This document shows, one piece after another, positions 21,373-30,951 of a DNA stretch of 64,000 nucleotides (within the stretch, counting starts at the first letter, position 1; each line of letters opens with the position of its first letter). The stretch lies in contig NZ_JANZYP010000005.1 in NCBI RefSeq assembly GCF_025506355.1, positions 62,001 through 126,000 on the forward strand, in the 5' to 3' direction. Under the pieces are notes generated by a model. That model saw only the letters and a list, made by a program, of their open reading frames with translations, had not been told where the DNA came from and did not search any database. The DNA is from Sphaerisporangium corydalis. GTDB taxonomy: Bacteria; Actinomycetota; Actinomycetes; Streptosporangiales; Streptosporangiaceae. A program made the position numbers and the translations under genes.

Positions 21373-24300
21373 TTAGGGGGTTAGGGCGGTTTGGATGGGG
21401 GTGGGGGTGCCGGAGATGACGAGGAGGCCGCGGCCGGGGGGGCCGCCTACGGCGCCGCGGGGGAGGCGGACGTTGAACAGGTCGCCGTCCGCGGGGCTCT
21501 GCACAGACAGGAGTAGTCCCGTGCGTGCCTTGCGCGCCTCGGCCACGAAGCCGCGGTAGGCGGTGGCGAGGTCACCGGTGGTCCCCGCGATCAGCAGGCC
21601 GTGCTCGCCGTCCCGGCCGCTGCGCAGCGTGCCCTCCAGGGCCAGGCCGAGGGGTGAGTCGGGGGACACCAGTTCGGCGTCGTCGACGATGACGACGTAC
21701 CGCTCGTGGCCGCCGAGCGCCCCCGGCAGGTCCCCGGCCTCGCCGTCCCCGCCGAGGACCGCCAGCACGCCGGGCTCGCCGGTCAGTTCCCGCAGCGGGC
21801 TGCGGCGCGGCGCCACCACGGCGACCGGGGTGTCCTGGGCGAGCAGCGAACGGGCGGCCGTGAGCAGCGCCGAGGACCGCCCGGACCGCGACGGCCCCGC
21901 GATCACCGCCGCGGGCCCCTGCGCCAGCAGGTCGACGCCCAGCGGGGTCAGGGAGTCGCCGCCCGCGCCGAGCAGCGCCCACAGCGGCGACGGTGGCTTG
22001 AAGGCGGGGGCGAGCTCCAGGGCCTGCGTGGAGGTGATGCGCATCGGCAGCGCGTCCACCTTCAGCAGCGAACCGGGCCCGGGGTGGCGCGCCGCCGCCG
22101 TGCGCGCGAGCGCCTGGAGGGCGGCCACCTGGGCGGGCCCGGACGGGTCGTCGCACAGCAGCGCGATCTGGCTCTCCACGACCCCCTGCTCGCCGACGGA
22201 GATCACCCGTCCCGGCGGCATGGACGACGGGAGGCTCCGGGGCGGGATCCCCGCCAGGCCGTAGTCCGACGGATCGGCCAGCCGCATGATCAGCCGGTCC
22301 TCGAACAGCGTCGAGATCTGGCCGAGCAGGCCGGACCGGTCGGCGGTCACCACGGCGCGCAGCCCGACCGCCGGCCCCTCGCGGAGCAACTGCATGAGCG
22401 AGTCGAGCAGCCGCCCGTAGTCGTAGCCCTCGAACGCGGCGGCGAACCCCTCCCAGCGGTCGAGCATCAGCACGAGCCACGGCATGCGCAGCGTCGTGTC
22501 GCCCGTCCCGCCGTACGCGGTCACGGCCCTGGCCTCGGCCAGGGAGGCGTACCCGGCCTCGGCCAAAAGCTGCTGCCTGCGCCCGACCTCCGCCCGTAGC
22601 CGGGTGAGCAGGCGTTCGACCCGGTCGAGCTGGTCGCGCGTGACGACCGCGCCGCAGTGCGGGAGCGCGACCAGCGGCAAGAGGGCGCCGGAGCCGCAGT
22701 CGATGGCGTGCAGGTGCACGTCCTCGGGGGAGGCGTGCGTGGCGATGGAGCCGGCCAGGGTACGCAGGGCCGTCGACCTGCCGGTGCGCGCCGTGCCGGC
22801 GATCAGCAGGTGGCCGCCGTGCGCGGGGTCGAGGACGAGCGGGCGGCGGTCCTGGGCCCACGGCAGGTCGGTGAGGCCGAACGGCAGCGGCGGCACCTCG
22901 TCCCCGCCGTACTCCGACTCCTCCAGCAGCGTCAGCTCGGGGAGCGGGGGGAGCCACGGGCTCGGCTGCTCCGGGACGCCGGCCATGCGGGCGGCGTCCA
23001 CGACGGCGTCCACGAGGACGGCGAGGTCGCTCGCGCCTCCGCCGGCGGCGCCCATCGTCCCGCCGGGCGCCGATCCCAGGCGCAGCGGGTGCCCGAGGTC
23101 GCGCCAGCCGACCTCGACGACCTTGGGCCCGGCGCTCCGGCGCGCGGCCTCCGGCACCCGTCCGCCGACCCTGGCGGTCTGGACGGCCTGCGCCGCACCG
23201 ACGCCCGACCGTACGTAGCAGCGGCCCGGGGTGGACTTGGAGATGTGCGCGGCCTCGGGGCCGGAGATGACGTCGGCCGACTCGGCGGGCTCGGTGACGC
23301 GCAGCGCGATGCGCAGGGAGGTGTTGGCCTGGATGTCGGCGGTCACCACGCCGCCGGGCCGCTGGGTGGCGAGGACGAGGTGGATGCCGAGCGAGCGTCC
23401 GCGCCGGGCGATGTCGACCAGGCCGTCCACGAAGTCGGGCAGTTCGGCCACCATGGCGGCGAACTCGTCGATGATCAGCAGGAGGCGGGGCAGGGGCGCG
23501 GACGCCGGGACCGCCTGCCTGGAGCCGAGCCCCCCGGCCCTGCCCCCTGTCGACGCGGAGCCTGCATGAGCACCCGGGCCTCCATAGGCACCCAGGCCCC
23601 CAAGAGAACCCGAGCGCCCGAGAGCGCCAGAGCCTCCGAGAGCGGCACCCGAGCCCCGGGACGCCAGCCCCGACGACCCGCCCGACGACCCGGACCCGCC
23701 CGACGACCCGGGCCCGCCGGAGGGACCGCCGAACGACCCCGACCCACCGGACGACCCCGACCCGCCAGATCCCGACCCACCAGACCCCGGCCCGCCCAAG
23801 GTGGCAGGACCGCCCAAGGTCGCGGCCCCGCCCGGCGACCCCGAACCGCCCAGCGTGGCCGGACCGCCCAGCGTGGCCGATCCGCCGAGGGTGGCCGGGC
23901 CGCCCAGCGTGCCCAGGGACGCGGAGCCGTCGTTCAGGCGGTCCCTGAGCTCCAGGTAGTCCTCGATGTCCTTGGCCCCGGTCGCGAGCAGCAGCCGCTC
24001 CCTGCGGCGGATCTCGGCCGCCAGGGAGGCGAGAGCCCGCTGGGTCAAATGCTCGTCCAGGTCGCTGACCATGCCGACGGTGTGCGGCAGCCGCACGCAC
24101 TCCTTGAACGCGGCGCCGCCCTTGTAGTCGATGAGCACGAACGTCATCTCGTCCGGCCGGTTGGCCACGGCCAGGGAGCAGATCAGGGTCTGGAGCAGCT
24201 CCGACTTACCCGCGCCCGTCGTCCCCGCGACCAGCGCGTGCGGGCCGTCCGTGCGCAGGTCCACGCTGAACGGCCCGTCGGGCCCGACGCCGATCGGCAC

Positions 24301-26445
24301 ACGGGTCGTCCGGCCTCCCGAGCGCCACCGCGCCGCGATCGTGCGGCCGGTCGGGACCAGTTCCAGCAGGTCGAGCAGGCGCACCGAGCCGGGGAGCGCG
24401 GCCGCCGCGTCGTCCCTGCTCACGTCGCGCAGGGGCGCGAGCGACCGTGCCAGGCGGTCGCACCACGCGGGCGAGACCTGGTCGGCGAGGATCTCGCCGA
24501 GCGCGTCCAGCCCGCCGCCGCGCAGCCGTACGAACCCCTCGGCGCCGCAGTCGACGACGGTCGCGCACTCCTCGGGGAGCAGGCGCTGGTCCTCGTCGAT
24601 GGCGATCGTGTAGACGCCGGCGCGCGGGCCCTGGCGGAGCACCTGGGGCATTCCGGGCAGGGCGCGCAGCACTTGGGCGCCGTCGAGGATGACCAGCACG
24701 TCGTACGGGCGGTCGTCGTAGGCCGCGAACAGGGGTTCCTCGTCGGGCTGGAAGGAGCGTCCCCATCCCTTCATCGACGGGAGCGAGCCGAGGGGGTGCC
24801 CTTCGTCGTCGCCGAGCCGCTCGCCGATCAGCGTGGCCAGCTCCGCCACCCGCTGGGCCGCGGCCTCGGGGTCGGCGCCGACCAGCGCGACGCACGAGGC
24901 GTCGCGGGGCGCGCAGTGCGGCAGCCAGCGCGCCCAGCCCCACTGCGCGGCGCCGTCGGCGTTGGCGGAGAGCACGACGACGGCGAGGTCGCGCGGGCTG
25001 TGCAGGGTGACGGCGGTGCCGACCAGCGACCGGGCGAGCCCGAGGGTGACCTCTCGCGGCCCGGTCATGCCGGCCACGCCGAGCCGCCGCATCGCCAGCG
25101 AGACCGGGACGGCCCCCGACAGCGGCGGCTCGGGCAGGGCGGTGTCGGGGGACGCGCCGCGCTCGGGCACGAAGTCGATCTCCGCGGGGAGGTCGGCCAG
25201 CCCGATGCGCAGGCGCAGCGCGTCGGGGTCGTGGCTCCTGCGCTCCCACAGCCGCCGCCGGGGGCCGGTGGCGGTCAGCAGCAGCTCGGCGGGGTCGGGG
25301 GAGGCGGCGCGGCGTTCGAGCTCGTTCACGGCCCTGGCCGTCTCCAGCGCGGCCTCGAAGGTCACCAGGCGTTCCTTGTACGCCTTGACGGCCTGCCGGT
25401 ACTGCCTGCGGCCGTGCCGCCGGTCGCTGATCCACTGCCCGATCATGATCAGGGGCGTCATCAGGGCAATCAGCAGGTAGTACCAGATCTGGAACACCGC
25501 GGCCATGGTCAGCCCGAGGACGGCGGGGAGGCACGCGGCGAGCAACTGCAGCCGCACGCCCTCGCCCCTGCCGGGTTCGGCCGGCACCTCGAACCGCTTG
25601 CGGCGCTCGGCGGGACGCAGCCGGGGCGGCCGGTTGTAGGCCAGGCCCCCTTCGGGCAGGACGTCCAGGTGGGCGTCGGGGGGCTCGGTGGCCTTCAGAA
25701 GCAGGACCGAGTTCCCGCAGGTGAGGGGGCTGCCGTCCGGCCAGCGGCGGGGGGCGGCGACCGGTTCGCCCGCCAGCCTCGGCACGGTGTGCGTCGCGCC
25801 GCTCGCCAGTGCGCCGATGACCTCGGCCTTCTCGGCGGCGCCCGTCACGGCCCGGCCGGCCGCCTTGCCCCGCGCCCGCCGCTTCGCCTTGCGCCGTGCC
25901 CTGCGCGAGGGCTTCGCCGGTGCCCTGCCGGGGGGTAAGACGGATCTGACCAGCACCTCGTCCGGTGTGACGCGCACCTCGGCCGCCTCTGTGGCGAGCT
26001 GTGGATCGGCGATGGACACCGCGCACGCGGTGTCGGACCCGATGACGTGCACGCCGAGGCCGAGCCGGTGCACCGCGCCCGCGCCCGGCCCGCCGACCAC
26101 CCGGATCTCGATGGCGCCGCCGGGCTCGGCCAGGAGCGTCGACACCGCCGACCGCTGGTCGAGCGCCACCAGGTCGCCGTCCCGCAGGGCCGCGACCATG
26201 GGCGCGTCCGGGTCGAGCCGCCGGCCGTCCACCCACAGCGACGGCACCTCTCGCCCGCGCGGGCGTGACTGCCCGCCGAGGCCGTACGGCGCGCGGGCGC
26301 GCGTCAGCCGCACGACGTTGCCGCGGTTCTCCGCCGGTGCGCCCTTCAGCGCGACGGCGAGGGCCGCGACCGTGGTCTCCTCGTCACCATCGACGACGAC
26401 GTCTCGATGGCCGTGCTCTGAGACCACGGTAAGCATGATCCGCAT
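21373..26445 (-). CDS. EccC/EssC-type FtsK/SpoIIIE ATPase (type VII secretion-like)
   Basis: 1690 residues, ATG 26445 with GGAGGAG about 8 nt upstream. Order: ubiquitin-like N-terminus (about 1-85), FHA-like domain (about 105-170; VIGSDTACAVSI), basic segment, two close membrane helices (about 302-336), and a conserved EssC-type region. Then come three FtsK domains. Domain 1 has a perfect Walker A GTTGAGKS (about 740) and Walker B LLLIIDEFAAM. Domains 2 and 3 have Arg in place of the Walker lysine (GTARTGRS near 1220, GPSRSGRS near 1520). By family it is the membrane motor of a T7SS and recognises WXG100 substrates; one candidate substrate is at 14770. A glycine-rich insert of about 135 residues splits domain 1 between Walker A and Walker B. 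A lipoprotein gene lies 99 bp upstream on the same strand. Confidence 0.88.
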   Translation of the reverse strand: MRIMLTVVSEHGHRDVVVDGDEETTVAALAVALKGAPAENRGNVVRLTRARAPYGLGGQSRPRGREVPSLWVDGRRLDPDAPMVAALRDGDLVALDQRSAVSTLLAEPGGAIEIRVVGGPGAGAVHRLGLGVHVIGSDTACAVSIADPQLATEAAEVRVTPDEVLVRSVLPPGRAPAKPSRRARRKAKRRARGKAAGRAVTGAAEKAEVIGALASGATHTVPRLAGEPVAAPRRWPDGSPLTCGNSVLLLKATEPPDAHLDVLPEGGLAYNRPPRLRPAERRKRFEVPAEPGRGEGVRLQLLAACLPAVLGLTMAAVFQIWYYLLIALMTPLIMIGQWISDRRHGRRQYRQAVKAYKERLVTFEAALETARAVNELERRAASPDPAELLLTATGPRRRLWERRSHDPDALRLRIGLADLPAEIDFVPERGASPDTALPEPPLSGAVPVSLAMRRLGVAGMTGPREVTLGLARSLVGTAVTLHSPRDLAVVVLSANADGAAQWGWARWLPHCAPRDASCVALVGADPEAAAQRVAELATLIGERLGDDEGHPLGSLPSMKGWGRSFQPDEEPLFAAYDDRPYDVLVILDGAQVLRALPGMPQVLRQGPRAGVYTIAIDEDQRLLPEECATVVDCGAEGFVRLRGGGLDALGEILADQVSPAWCDRLARSLAPLRDVSRDDAAAALPGSVRLLDLLELVPTGRTIAARWRSGGRTTRVPIGVGPDGPFSVDLRTDGPHALVAGTTGAGKSELLQTLICSLAVANRPDEMTFVLIDYKGGAAFKECVRLPHTVGMVSDLDEHLTQRALASLAAEIRRRERLLLATGAKDIEDYLELRDRLNDGSASLGTLGGPATLGGSATLGGPATLGGSGSPGGAATLGGPATLGGPGSGGSGSGGSGSSGGSGSFGGPSGGPGSSGGSGSSGGSSGLASRGSGAALGGSGALGRSGSLGGLGAYGGPGAHAGSASTGGRAGGLGSRQAVPASAPLPRLLLIIDEFAAMVAELPDFVDGLVDIARRGRSLGIHLVLATQRPGGVVTADIQANTSLRIALRVTEPAESADVISGPEAAHISKSTPGRCYVRSGVGAAQAVQTARVGGRVPEAARRSAGPKVVEVGWRDLGHPLRLGSAPGGTMGAAGGGASDLAVLVDAVVDAARMAGVPEQPSPWLPPLPELTLLEESEYGGDEVPPLPFGLTDLPWAQDRRPLVLDPAHGGHLLIAGTARTGRSTALRTLAGSIATHASPEDVHLHAIDCGSGALLPLVALPHCGAVVTRDQLDRVERLLTRLRAEVGRRQQLLAEAGYASLAEARAVTAYGGTGDTTLRMPWLVLMLDRWEGFAAAFEGYDYGRLLDSLMQLLREGPAVGLRAVVTADRSGLLGQISTLFEDRLIMRLADPSDYGLAGIPPRSLPSSMPPGRVISVGEQGVVESQIALLCDDPSGPAQVAALQALARTAAARHPGPGSLLKVDALPMRITSTQALELAPAFKPPSPLWALLGAGGDSLTPLGVDLLAQGPAAVIAGPSRSGRSSALLTAARSLLAQDTPVAVVAPRRSPLRELTGEPGVLAVLGGDGEAGDLPGALGGHERYVVIVDDAELVSPDSPLGLALEGTLRSGRDGEHGLLIAGTTGDLATAYRGFVAEARKARTGLLLSVQSPADGDLFNVRLPRGAVGGPPGRGLLVISGTPTPIQTALTP
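23525..23935 (-). repeat. Glycine-rich coding repeats inside FtsK domain 1
   Basis: About 135 codons of GPATLGG/GSATLGG, GSGSGG and SLGGLGAYGG units lie between DRLNDGS and ASAPLPRLLLIIDEF. In normal EssC/EccC proteins these flanks are joined by a short loop of about 10 residues, so this is an in-frame expansion. Confidence 0.85.
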
Positions 26446-27371: not shown

Positions 27372-27510
27372 TGTGGATAACCTCCTGTCCTGTGGATAAC
27401 CGGCTGATGCCGTGACGGATTTCCACTCTTAAAACGGATATTTCGTTACAAATCACGCGAAAGTTCGGCCGGAGATAACGCGCTGTGCCTGTGGACAACG
27501 CTGTGGACAA
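27372..27510 (+). other. Cluster of four consensus DnaA boxes around an A+T-rich stretch
   Basis: TGTGGATAA at 27372-27380 and 27391-27399, and TGTGGACAA at 27490-27498 and 27502-27510, all in the same orientation. Reverse complements are TTATCCACA and TTGTCCACA, the actinobacterial DnaA-box consensus. Between the pairs lies an A+T-rich stretch (about 27420-27465, with TTAAAACGGATATTTCG), unusual here. A one-mismatch box (AGTGGATAA) is at 27821-27829. No dnaA or dnaN gene is present. Confidence 0.8.
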
Positions 27511-28044
27511 CTCGCCGCCCGGCTTCCCGATCCCCGCCCCATCCCCCGATCGGCCCGCCCGATCCCCCGTCCCCGCCGGGCCTCGCGCCCGATCCCGTCC
27601 GGCGTCCCGCCCGCTCGCGCGCCCGCCGGAGGGGCGCGGCCGAATCCGGGGACGATCCTTGCGCGGCGCATGGTTGGGATGGCGGCCGGCGGGGAAACCA
27701 GAGTGGTAAGTGAGGCTGAGGTTACGGTCGATACAAAAGGGAATATCAACGGAAATTTCGCTGTGGGCGATGTCACGGGGCAGGCGTGATTCTTGACGCT
27801 CCCGTTGACAGTTAATCGATAGTGGATAAGCATGGGTCCGGTTTCCATCCCCGCGCTTGGTGCAAGCTGCACGCAATGGCATGAGAATTCCGGAAGATAA
27901 CTTCACGACCTCCGTCCTACATATCCGTGACCATGCCGTCCCGCACCGTGGTCATGCGGTTCATCTCGGTCGGCCCCGCCGCTGACCGGTATCAGCGCAT
28001 GGTGAGGGTGTCGGCCCGGTCCCTGATTCGGGAGCCCCCCACTC
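27511..28044. other. Gene-free stretch upstream of the Tad operon
   Basis: No coding sequence is supported. The left part is extremely G+C-rich, and the right part (27700-27900) is A+T-richer and probably holds the Tad operon promoter. TTGACG at 27793-27798 and TTGACA at 27805-27810 could be -35 elements, but no convincing -10 at proper spacing is seen. Confidence 0.4.
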
Positions 28045-28746
28045 ATGAGGATCAGCGAGAAATCGGACCGCGACACCCGCGGGCCCGTGAACTCGGAGCG
28101 CCCGGGGACGCCGGGCGCGCTGTCCGGACCGGCCTCCCGCAAGCTCCCCGTGCCGCCCCGCGAGCGCAAGCCCGCCCTGGCCGCCCTCGCGCTGCTCCTG
28201 GTACTCGGCGGCGCCCTCGCCACCACCCTGCTGGTCATCCGCAGCGGCGACCGCGTGTCCGCCATCCAGATCGTCCAGCAGATCGGGCCCGGCCAGCCGG
28301 TGCTCCCCGAGGCGATGCAGGAGGTCCAGATCGCCGACACCGGCGTCGGGTACGTCTCCTGGTCCGCCCGCCAGCAGGTCGCCGCGACCTTCGCCCGGGT
28401 CACTCTGCTGCCCGGCACCCTGCTCACCGAGCAGATGGTCAGCCGGGCCAGTGACCAGCTCGGCCCCGGCAAGGTCACCCTCGGCCTCGCGCTCAAGGCC
28501 GGCCAGGTGCCCCTCGGCCTCCAGCGGGGCGACCAGGTCCAGGTGCTGTACGTCCCGGGCTCGGGCAGGGGCACGGCGCAGGGCAAGGTGCTCGCCCCGA
28601 CCGCGCTGGTCGACAGCGTCGGCACCAGCGAGGGGAGCAGCTCGGGCCTGGTGTCGATCATCGTCGACGCCACCGTCTCCCCGGCGATCGCCATGTACTC
28701 GTCGAGTGGTGAGATCGCCCTGGGCAAGCTGTCCGGAGCCGGCTGA
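28045..28746 (+). CDS. CpaB/RcpC-like SAF-domain protein of Tad locus
   Basis: 233 residues. Cytoplasmic N-terminus, one membrane helix (PALAALALLLVLGGALATTLLVI, about 42-65), then a SAF-like domain outside: VSAIQIVQQIGPGQPVLPEAMQEVQI, LLPGTLLTEQMVS and VTLGLALKAGQVP. This is the pattern of pilus-associated CpaB/FlgA-type SAF proteins. CpaB/RcpC assists Tad pilus assembly across the envelope. First gene of the Tad operon. The next gene starts 1 bp after its stop, so they are translationally coupled. GGGAG lies upstream of ATG 28045. Confidence 0.82.
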   Translation: MRISEKSDRDTRGPVNSERPGTPGALSGPASRKLPVPPRERKPALAALALLLVLGGALATTLLVIRSGDRVSAIQIVQQIGPGQPVLPEAMQEVQIADTGVGYVSWSARQQVAATFARVTLLPGTLLTEQMVSRASDQLGPGKVTLGLALKAGQVPLGLQRGDQVQVLYVPGSGRGTAQGKVLAPTALVDSVGTSEGSSSGLVSIIVDATVSPAIAMYSSSGEIALGKLSGAG

Positions 28747-28747
28747 C

Positions 28748-29647
28748 GTGGCACTCATCGCGCTCGCCGCCGACAAGGGGGCGCCCGGCGTGACCACCGC
28801 CGCGACGGCCCTCGGCGCCGTGTGGCCGAGGCCGGTGCTGCTCGCCGAATGCGACCCCTCCGGAGGCGACCTGGCGTACCGGCTGCCCGCCGTGGACGGC
28901 GGCGTGCTCAACCCCGGGCGGGGGCTGCTCAGCCTCGGGGCGACGGCCCGGCGCGGGCTGCGTCCCGAGCAGGTCCACGAGCACACCCAGAAGCTCGTCG
29001 GCGGCCTCGACGTGCTCACCGGCCTGACCAACGGCGAGCAGGCCACCGGCCTGACCTGGCTGTGGGGTCCGCTCGGCCGGGCGCTCGCCGCGCTGCCGGG
29101 CGCCGACGTGCTCGCCGACTGCGGCAGGCTCGGCGCCCACCCGCAGATGGGCGAGCTGATCGCCGAGGCCGAGCTCACGCTGCTGTTCACCCGCCCGAGC
29201 CTCGACCACGTGGCCCACCTCCGCGAACGGCTCATGCTGATCTCCGGGCAGGTCGGCGTGGTCGTGATCTCCGACCCCCGGTCCTACCGGGGTTCCATCG
29301 ACGAGGTGCGCCGCATCGTCGCCGCGACCGCCAGAGAGGTCGCCTTCGTGGCGGGCATGGCCTACGACCCGAAGGGCGCCGAGCTGCTCAGGGGCCAGTG
29401 GGGAGGCCGCCTGGACCGCTCCCTGCTCATCCGCACGGCACGCGAGCTGGCCGGCCGCCTGGCCGCGCGCGTCGCGCCGGGCCGTACGCCCGCGCGGCCC
29501 GAGGCGCGTCCGGACGGCGGCACGCCCCCGGCGGGCGTCGCCAAGACCGGGCTCACCCGGGGCCAGGGCGGCCTCGCCCGTGGCACGGGCGGCATCTCGC
29601 GCGGCCCGGCACGCTCGCAGGAGACGCGGGCGGAGCGATCCGAATGA
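28748..29647 (+). CDS. CpaE/TadZ-like ParA-superfamily protein with deviant P-loop
   Basis: 299 residues from GTG 28748. MinD/ParA-like fold: N-terminal ALAADKGAPGVTTAATAL takes the place of the KGGxGKTT P-loop, keeping the first 'signature' lysine but replacing the nucleotide-binding lysine with Val. LLAECDPSGGDLAYRL is the switch I/Walker A' region and VLADCGRLG the Walker B equivalent. TadZ/CpaE proteins localise the Tad machine at the membrane, usually as dimers. Loss of the Walker Lys suggests weak or no ATP hydrolysis. A basic Gly/Arg tail of about 60 residues ends the protein. The 4-nt ATGA overlap with tadA fits an operon. Confidence 0.82.
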   Translation: MALIALAADKGAPGVTTAATALGAVWPRPVLLAECDPSGGDLAYRLPAVDGGVLNPGRGLLSLGATARRGLRPEQVHEHTQKLVGGLDVLTGLTNGEQATGLTWLWGPLGRALAALPGADVLADCGRLGAHPQMGELIAEAELTLLFTRPSLDHVAHLRERLMLISGQVGVVVISDPRSYRGSIDEVRRIVAATAREVAFVAGMAYDPKGAELLRGQWGGRLDRSLLIRTARELAGRLAARVAPGRTPARPEARPDGGTPPAGVAKTGLTRGQGGLARGTGGISRGPARSQETRAERSE

Positions 29648-30951
29648 GCATCGACCACACCCTGGTGAAGCGGTTCCGGCAGGAGGTCGGCGACCGGCTC
29701 GCCCACCAGCGGCGCCTCGACCAGGCCAGTGGCCTGACCCCCATGTCCGGCGAGGACGAGCGCCAGTTCGCGCGGGCGCTGATCTCCCAGGTGCTGGAGG
29801 AGCACGCGCGCAGCGAGATCGGCTCGGGCCGCACGCCCCCTACCGCCGAGGAGGAGGAGGGCCTGGCGGCGGGCATCCACGCCGCGCTGTTCGGCGTGGG
29901 CCGGCTGCAACCGCTGCTTGACGACCCCGAGGTCGAGAACATCGACGTCAACGGCTGCGACCGCGTGTTCGTCGGTTACGCCGACGGCCAGGAGCTCATT
30001 CACGACCCGGTGGCCGAGACCGACGAGGAACTGGTCGAGCTCATCCAGATCCTCGCCGCCTACAGCGGCCTGTCCAGCCGCGCGTTCGACACCGCCAACC
30101 CGCAGCTCGACCTGCGGCTCCCCGACGGCTCGCGCCTCTCGGCGGTCATGGACGTCACCGTGCGCCCGGCGGTGTCCATCCGCAGGGCCCGCCTCGGCAA
30201 GGTGTTCCTCAGCGACCTGGTGGGCAACGGCACCCTCACCCCCGAGATCGGCCGCTTCCTGTCCGCCGCCGTCGCGGCCAGGAAGAACATCATGATCGCC
30301 GGGTCGACCAACGCCGGGAAGACGACCCTGCTGCGCGCCCTGGCCAACGAGATCCCGGCCCACGAGCGGCTGATCACCGTCGAGCGCGCCCTGGAGCTGG
30401 GGCTCGACCAGTTCTCCGAGCTGCACCCCAACGTGGTGGCGTTCGAGCACCGCCTGCCCAACTCCGAGGGCCAGGGCGAGATCACCATGGCCGAGCTGGT
30501 GCGGCGCTCGCTGCGCATGAACCCGAGCCGCGTCATCGTCGGCGAGGTGCTGGGCGACGAGATCGTCACGATGCTGAACGCCATGACCCAGGGCAACGAC
30601 GGGTCGCTGTCGACGATCCACGCCAACTCCTCGATGGAGGTGTTCAACCGCATCGCCACCTACGCGCTGCAGGCGCGCGAGCGGTTGCCGATCGAGGCCA
30701 CCCACATGCTCATCGCCGGCGCCATCGACTTCGTGGTCTTCATCGAGAAGCGCAACGACTACCACCAGGGCGGGCGGCTGCGCCGGTACATCGCCAGCGT
30801 CCGCGAGGTGGCCGGGGTCGACGGGCGGGTGCTGTCGTCGGAGATCTTCGCCTCGGGACCCGACGGCCACGCCGTGCCGCACGCCCCGATCGCCTGCATC
30901 GACGACCTGGCCCAGCACGGCTACGACCCGACGATGGGAGCCTGGTCATGA
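29644..30951 (+). CDS. tadA: Tad/CpaF-type secretion ATPase
   Basis: 435 residues. Hexameric VirB11/GspE-type ATPase powering Tad pilus assembly and retraction from the cytoplasmic face. Motifs: N-terminal domain with LFGVGRLQPLLDDPEVENIDVNG, RPAVSIRRA, Walker A GSTNAGKTT (about 220-228), ERALEL Asp-box region, Walker B PSRVIVGEVLGDE (about 294-306), and TQGNDGSLSTIHANSS His-box. The start overlaps the tadZ stop by 4 nt, and its own stop overlaps tadB by 4 nt. Confidence 0.95.
   Translation: MSIDHTLVKRFRQEVGDRLAHQRRLDQASGLTPMSGEDERQFARALISQVLEEHARSEIGSGRTPPTAEEEEGLAAGIHAALFGVGRLQPLLDDPEVENIDVNGCDRVFVGYADGQELIHDPVAETDEELVELIQILAAYSGLSSRAFDTANPQLDLRLPDGSRLSAVMDVTVRPAVSIRRARLGKVFLSDLVGNGTLTPEIGRFLSAAVAARKNIMIAGSTNAGKTTLLRALANEIPAHERLITVERALELGLDQFSELHPNVVAFEHRLPNSEGQGEITMAELVRRSLRMNPSRVIVGEVLGDEIVTMLNAMTQGNDGSLSTIHANSSMEVFNRIATYALQARERLPIEATHMLIAGAIDFVVFIEKRNDYHQGGRLRRYIASVREVAGVDGRVLSSEIFASGPDGHAVPHAPIACIDDLAQHGYDPTMGAWS

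Follow-up and report, generated by a model that had tools for sequence, protein, structure and literature searches.

Four exact DnaA boxes in one orientation lie between an eccC-like type VII secretion ATPase gene and a Tad operon in Sphaerisporangium corydalis, and arrays of such boxes recur at the same place in relatives from nine genera. The array is probably a real control site, because many relatives carry a similar layout at this position, and the recurrence of boxes, place, orientation, and spacing in these relatives far beyond chance points to selection. The best explanation, which we hold with about even confidence, is a conserved DnaA-binding control array that would regulate the eccC-side promoter and also titrate some DnaA. 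Judged from its sequence, the array is a further case of the known extra-oriC DnaA-box clusters, with a conserved geometry of its own; it consists of consensus boxes that are clustered beyond chance and lie outside oriC. Among the matches listed from the open-licence PMC literature, none describes an array at the eccC/Tad locus.

Sequence and Surroundings of the Array

The window analysed here is the whole 64,000-nucleotide (64 kb) stretch of DNA. Box A at 27372..27380 and box B at 27391..27399, the best-conserved box of the array, both read TTATCCACA, and box C at 27490..27498 and box D at 27502..27510 both read TTGTCCACA. All four boxes are exact matches to TTRTCCACA on the minus strand, and they are the only exact matches in the window. 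The pitch is 19 bp from A to B and 12 bp from C to D, and the distance from the second box to the third is 99 bp. An earlier note on this DNA had described four exact boxes in one orientation, arranged as two close pairs of 19-bp and 12-bp pitch and clustered beyond chance, and the coordinates and counts bear out each of these points. Dinucleotide-preserving shuffles of the window (n = 100) gave a mean of 0.23 exact boxes, and none of the 100 reached four. Boxes with up to one mismatch number 7 in the window versus 5.9 expected, a count near expectation, so what stands out is the exactness and the closeness of the boxes. The whole assembly (9.48 Mb in 162 contigs) contains 63 exact boxes versus 22 matches to the backward-read pattern, and 63 randomly scattered boxes would be expected to form a cluster of four within 130 bp about 7e-9 times. 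A 961-base segment around the array matched nothing in a plasmid search.

The two box modules are separated by a stretch that includes a central block, TAAAACGGATATTT, at 27430..27443 on the plus strand, which was followed in alignments of 11 genus genomes and of 40 loci. The block is mostly conserved in Sphaerisporangium as TAAACCGGAT, and the alignment of 40 loci revealed no conservation of the block or of the inter-module sequence between genera. The middle of the array had been called A+T-rich, which holds in a relative sense in this genome, where it has 52% G+C over 90 bp and the intergenic region has 63%; among the 11 genus genomes the G+C content of the middle spans 51–62%, and the description does not extend to the genus.

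The eccC-like gene (21373..26445, minus strand) encodes a protein of 1690 aa with FtsK/SpoIIIE domains (Pfam PF01580), which also matched the NCBIfam models EssC, EccCa, and EccCb with scores below their cut-offs. A small lipoprotein gene (Lipoprotein_15, Pfam PF03640; 26545..27144, minus strand) is the nearest leftward gene in most Sphaerisporangium. It lies between the array and eccC in 9 of the 11 genus genomes and was not found there in the other two, G004 and G007. To the right, the Tad operon begins with a gene at 28045..28746 on the plus strand that gave no Pfam or NCBIfam match; from its position we take it to be SAF/CpaB-like. It is followed by a TadA-type ATPase gene (28822-30951) and then by genes for T2SSF, TadE, and Tad proteins. 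The neighbouring gene occurs in eight named relatives, seven of them Sphaerisporangium and one Nonomuraea.

Both flanks of the array carry their own conserved promoter-like blocks in the genus. The block on the Tad side (27805..27838, plus strand), seen in the alignment of 11 genus genomes, features TTGACAG...AGTGGATAAGCATGGGT, that is, TTGACAG and then ATAGTGGATRAGCATGGGTC, and we infer that it is the promoter of the Tad side. A near-match to a box at 27821 (AGTGGATAA), which had been linked to the array, falls within this right-hand block, which is common to all 11 genus genomes. The site is within one mismatch of a box in just three of the 11 (this genome, G005, and G009) and thus has not been kept up as a DnaA box. 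Reading it as part of the array went too far, and it is rejected as a fifth box.

Conservation Across Streptosporangiaceae

The absence of the boxes from relatives with this locus had been named beforehand as grounds for refutation, and the array proved to be conserved. Each of the 11 genus genomes, this one included, possesses the first Tad gene, and each carries three or more one-strand boxes of the same orientation upstream of it, in the interval that separates eccC from the Tad operon. The alignment of these genomes shows no variation in the TGTGGA core of box B. Box D is variable, being kept in some genus members, degenerate in others, and not evident in most other genera. Additionally, a box on the opposite strand, exact or with one mismatch, is located just upstream of the array in five of the 11 (G001, G005, G006, G008, and G010).

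The search of the family covered 160 genomes with a three-row profile of the first Tad gene, and 118 matched. The 75 strong loci comprise 64 strong matches outside the genus and the 11 genus members; 34 weaker, deeper loci were also taken, and 12 genomes with only very weak matches were left out of the upstream comparison. The 75 strong loci contain 81 exact boxes in the 1.4 kb that precede the first Tad gene, versus 0.5 expected from shuffles, and the upstream regions of the 34 deeper loci contain 0 versus 0.15 expected. An array was scored where at least three one-strand boxes with up to one mismatch, one or more of them exact, lie within 145 bp. By this definition, an array at the same place is found in 11 of 11 genus members, in 35 of the 75 strong loci (0 expected from shuffles), and in none of the 34 deeper loci. 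Because 40 of the 75 strong loci lack a scored array and all 34 deeper loci lack an exact box, neither gene set needs the array.

The 35 positive loci are distributed over g1 (11 of 11), g6 (7 of 7), g29 (7 of 7), g25 (3 of 5), g38 (2 of 4), g52 (2 of 2), and g45, g53, and g16 (1 of 1 each). No array was scored in the examined members of g59 (6), g55 (4), g20 (5), and g30 (2), in g4 (0 of 7), or in several genera of one or two genomes. Edge cases of the definition are G081, whose array lies beyond the 1.4 kb limit, and G034, which has only 750 bp of upstream sequence; G047 and G129 feature the A-B pair alone. The distribution was also read off a tree of the first Tad protein for 107 of its 109 rows (G157 and G112, whose starts could not be estimated, are omitted). 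The array occurs throughout the 25 rows of g1, g6, g16, g38, and g52 (23 with the array and 2 with the pair only), which are joined at a fork with a support of only 90/37, and it is patchy in the second part of the tree (g25, g29, g45, and g53). This pattern suits an old array with several losses, and independent gains are also possible.

A different motif, AGATCTTCACG, followed by a GATGAAACGCTTTC-like stretch, is present upstream of eccC in G156 and G146 (g59), G062 (g53), G079 (g20), and partly in G039 (g30). This motif is possibly an alternative regulatory site.

Spacing and Orientation of the Boxes

The geometry was counted mechanically in the 75 strong loci over 2 kb of upstream sequence with up to one mismatch allowed. 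The strand reading towards eccC holds 157 of the 183 boxes and 77 of the 84 exact ones. A same-strand pair at exactly 19 bp occurs in 24 loci, and the next commonest short spacings are 12 bp (13 loci) and 32 bp (12 loci). A same-strand pair at 97–102 bp occurs in 26 loci, and the two spacings are found together in 20 of the 75, which belong to six genera (g1, g6, g25, g52, g38, and g16). The arrays of g29 are built otherwise, with spacings of 12, 20, and 32 bp and then mostly 110–111 bp. When boxes were placed by hand, the A-B pitch was 19 bp in 25 of 26 loci and the B-C distance was 97–102 bp in 24 of 27 and 88–89 bp in 3; these counts partly reflect selection, since the loci were chosen from alignments for having the arrangement, and the mechanical counts are the fair ones. 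Both hand counts leave out the loci of g29, g45, g53, g51, and g4; the A-B count also leaves out G001, G003, and G008, in which box A is unrecognisable, and the B-C count G047 and G129, which are without box C. The gap between 88–89 bp and 97–102 bp hints at helical phasing, as read from few independent events.

The 19-bp pair was also searched for across the family, with this one spacing in the pattern. Among 315 family genomes there are 42 matches in 39 genomes and 11 of 62 genera, and the backward control gave 0. The matches are divided into 29 at the eccC/Tad locus, 9 elsewhere, meaning that no eccC or Tad-gene match lies within about 1.5 kb, and 4 that are unassigned. In a sample of the class, the pair is found in 10 of 394 genomes, 48 of which belong to the family, and in only 1 of the 346 outside it. 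In two g25 genomes, a 19-bp pair at another locus (L186 in G105:C71 and L188 in G140:C26) has a TGTGGGC half-box between its boxes, and one ORF near L186 resembles a membrane transporter, judged by eye.

A Second Cluster at the EamA Locus

The only other short stretch of the assembly with four exact boxes is C115:65968-66087 (L063, L212, L219), where two head-to-head box pairs lie 99 bp apart. An exact head-to-head pair is found in 8 of the 11 genus genomes. Seven of these eight pairs, including that of this genome, are located between the same EamA gene and a neighbour that is 94–97% identical, and in these seven genomes a second pair, either exact or with one mismatch in one box, lies 98–100 bp away; the eighth pair (G008, L217) is at a different place. 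The middle of the cluster is partly conserved around CATTTCNGCATCT. The distance from the array edge to the probable EamA start, taken here as the second Met of the ORF, is 85–86 bp in six of the seven and about 125 bp in the seventh. The eccC/Tad array and the EamA cluster have in common two modules about 99 bp apart, and their box orientations differ.

Distance to the eccC Start

In 25 of 28 loci outside Sphaerisporangium, 87–112 bp separate the first box from the estimated eccC start; the exceptions are G062, G060, and G124. The set consists of 29 loci with an array or partial array minus G129, in which the eccC start could not be placed. Gene starts were estimated from protein alignments, and the lipoprotein starts of G006 and G010 were extrapolated; the estimated eccC start carries an ATG in the examples aligned. 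The whole eccC/Tad intergenic region outside Sphaerisporangium ranges from 538 to 1951 bp. In Sphaerisporangium, the first box with up to one mismatch lies 193–292 bp from the lipoprotein start, and in the two genomes that yielded no lipoprotein gene it lies 283 and 377 bp from eccC. The tight distance of the first box is lost in this genus, though 11 of 11 members retain the array.

Relation to Known DnaA-Box Clusters

Clusters of DnaA boxes named H69, H24, and D78 were reportedly described in Streptomyces coelicolor by Smulczyk-Krawczyszyn et al. in 2006; D78 is said to have the highest affinity, and its deletion is said to have an effect. The array resembles these clusters in being a group of consensus boxes outside oriC in a filamentous actinomycete, and it differs from them in its 19-bp pair, which is so rare in the class outside the family (the 346 genomes presumably including Streptomyces). 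Extra-oriC clusters are described as dampening initiation in S. coelicolor and B. subtilis in the available passages of PMC5742627, PMC10950094, and PMC4585315, with those of PMC5295017 more guarded on B. subtilis. The B. subtilis clusters are likewise groups of boxes outside the origin, and the removal of six leads to early initiation according to the accessible text of PMC5295017; however, a paper on them by Okumura et al. (2012), as listed there, calls them oriC-proximal in its title, whereas the array lies 1.06–1.89 Mb from dnaA in the relatives measured. The datA, DARS1, and DARS2 loci of E. coli are also non-coding DnaA-binding loci at conserved chromosomal places (PMC5010248), but datA is described as acting on DnaA activity with IHF, and DARS2 with IHF and Fis, and the array is known from sequence alone. 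Double-box targets of E. coli, such as those upstream of purH and polA, share with the array the close box pairs upstream of a gene (PMC11317965, in the part available). They differ from it in that two modules about 99 bp apart are present here, and the neighbours are also different, namely a type VII secretion-type ATPase at the array and an EamA transporter at the second cluster.

Possible Function of the Array

In the preferred reading of a control array, DnaA would bind the close box pairs cooperatively, and the two modules would form one bridged or wrapped DnaA complex. This complex would set the output of the leftward promoter, serving eccC or, in Sphaerisporangium, the lipoprotein gene and eccC, by the level of free active DnaA. 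Some DnaA would be retained by the array as well, making it a minor titration site, because its boxes are nearer to the consensus than those at the expected oriC of this organism: the array has four exact boxes, versus none downstream of dnaA and one upstream. Two observations favour control of the eccC-side promoter, namely the near-constant eccC distance outside Sphaerisporangium and the comparable placement of the second cluster. Titration is favoured by the presumed strength of the boxes, by the persistence of the array in Sphaerisporangium at other distances, and by the two-module layout that both clusters share. The two outputs are compatible, and titration may be an additional effect. 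The suggestion of a DnaA-controlled promoter for the Tad and eccC genes gains from the 87–112 bp distance on the eccC side; regulation of the Tad side is disfavoured by the separate conserved block found there and by the wide variation in the distance to the array.

The 12-bp pitch of boxes C and D, which is also present among the boxes around dnaA, argues for the control array, and E. coli DnaA is described as preferring box pairs 2–3 bp apart, as C and D are (available text of PMC11317965). Promoter control is weakened by the loss of the tight distance in Sphaerisporangium and by G124, G060, and G062, which also break it, and the constant eccC distance could reflect a constrained promoter beside an independent element. 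The opposite-strand box of some genus members also counts against a control array, as do the strong and deeper loci that lack an array.

More broadly, and as a tentative proposal that we would sooner doubt than assert, part of Streptosporangiaceae may possess a lineage-specific DnaA control system of at least two loci (eccC/Tad and EamA), in which modules about 98–100 bp apart form looped or wrapped complexes that adjust a nearby promoter while also buffering free DnaA, and the type VII secretion/Tad pilus locus thereby follows the hyphal replication state. To our knowledge, DnaA regulation is thinly mapped beyond a few model bacteria. Should DnaA act at the array, a filamentous actinomycete would have a secretion and pilus locus coupled to its replication state. 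The two-module design of about 99 bp, which occurs at two unrelated loci of the genus, would then offer a direct way to test how an extra-oriC DnaA complex is built.

It is a real possibility, at clearly less than even confidence, that the site titrates, inactivates, or reactivates DnaA in the manner of D78, a B. subtilis cluster, or datA/DARS, and so times initiation, with the adjacency to eccC being incidental. The exact boxes of the array, compared with the one-mismatch boxes downstream of dnaA and the single exact box upstream, are in keeping with such a role, as is the persistence of the array in genus members where the nearest leftward start is farther off and at no fixed distance. Additionally, since two genus loci share the two-module layout of about 99 bp with different box orientations, the layout looks like a property of the DnaA complex and not of one promoter, and the S. 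coelicolor and B. subtilis clusters are described as repressing untimely initiation (passages of PMC5742627, PMC10950094, and PMC4585315). However, the second cluster, and the array itself outside Sphaerisporangium, lie close to one start codon, and in the relatives measured 1.06–1.89 Mb separate the locus from dnaA. If the array had a general timing role, that role would also have to be dispensable, because whole genera (e.g., g59) have neither the array at the locus nor a 19-bp pair anywhere. In B. subtilis, the effect is strong only after six clusters are removed, and the accessible part of PMC5295017 reports that no clusters with a significant role were identified there.

It is improbable that a different DNA-binding protein, reading TGTGGATAA, uses the boxes as its sites. 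The recurrence of the 19-bp pair with an extended CTGTGGAWAAC core would fit such a protein, as would the frequent form of box A, TGTGGAAAA, which departs from the DnaA consensus by one base. These features are outweighed by the 12-bp pitch of C and D, found again among the boxes around dnaA, by the enrichment of exact boxes on the dnaA contig (7 versus 2.0 expected, Poisson p 0.004), and by the available text of PMC4285127, which gives TTGTCCACA as the high-affinity box for both S. coelicolor and M. tuberculosis.

dnaA and the Origin Region

The host DnaA is canonical, having relatives with a solved structure and the C-terminal helix-turn-helix DNA-binding domain. In this assembly dnaA is on contig C75 and the window on contig C108. 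The array and dnaA are 1.89 Mb apart in G003, 1.56 Mb apart in G006, 1.76 Mb apart in G008 on the assumption of a circular contig, and 1.06–1.40 Mb apart in six g6 genomes, which gives 1.06–1.89 Mb over nine long-contig relatives (G008 only if circular) and confirms the earlier note in placing the array far from dnaA. We expect oriC downstream of dnaA, where the place of dnaN is assumed from the usual gene order. The genome-wide scan and comparison with oriC that had been proposed found, beside the 63 exact boxes of the assembly, only one-mismatch boxes downstream of dnaA, some of them at 12-bp pitch, and one exact box upstream.

A relic or accessory replication origin, which had also been suggested, is very improbable and is rejected. 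Several boxes around a relatively A+T-rich middle would suit an origin in this genome. However, dnaA is elsewhere, and the array has no A+T-rich unwinding element, its middle having 51–62% G+C across the genus and a sequence that is unconserved between genera. A chance cluster, for which nothing speaks except the shortness of the motif, can be dismissed almost entirely on the roughly 7e-9 clusters expected from 63 random boxes and is refuted by the conservation of place, orientation, and spacing in relatives.

Two further groups of exact boxes were observed in the assembly. Three exact boxes at C75:238181-243251 are located 32–39 kb from dnaA, and two of them are 55 bp apart. Three exact copies of TTGTCCACA at C79:103228-103318 recur with a 41-bp period and are perhaps a tandem repeat.
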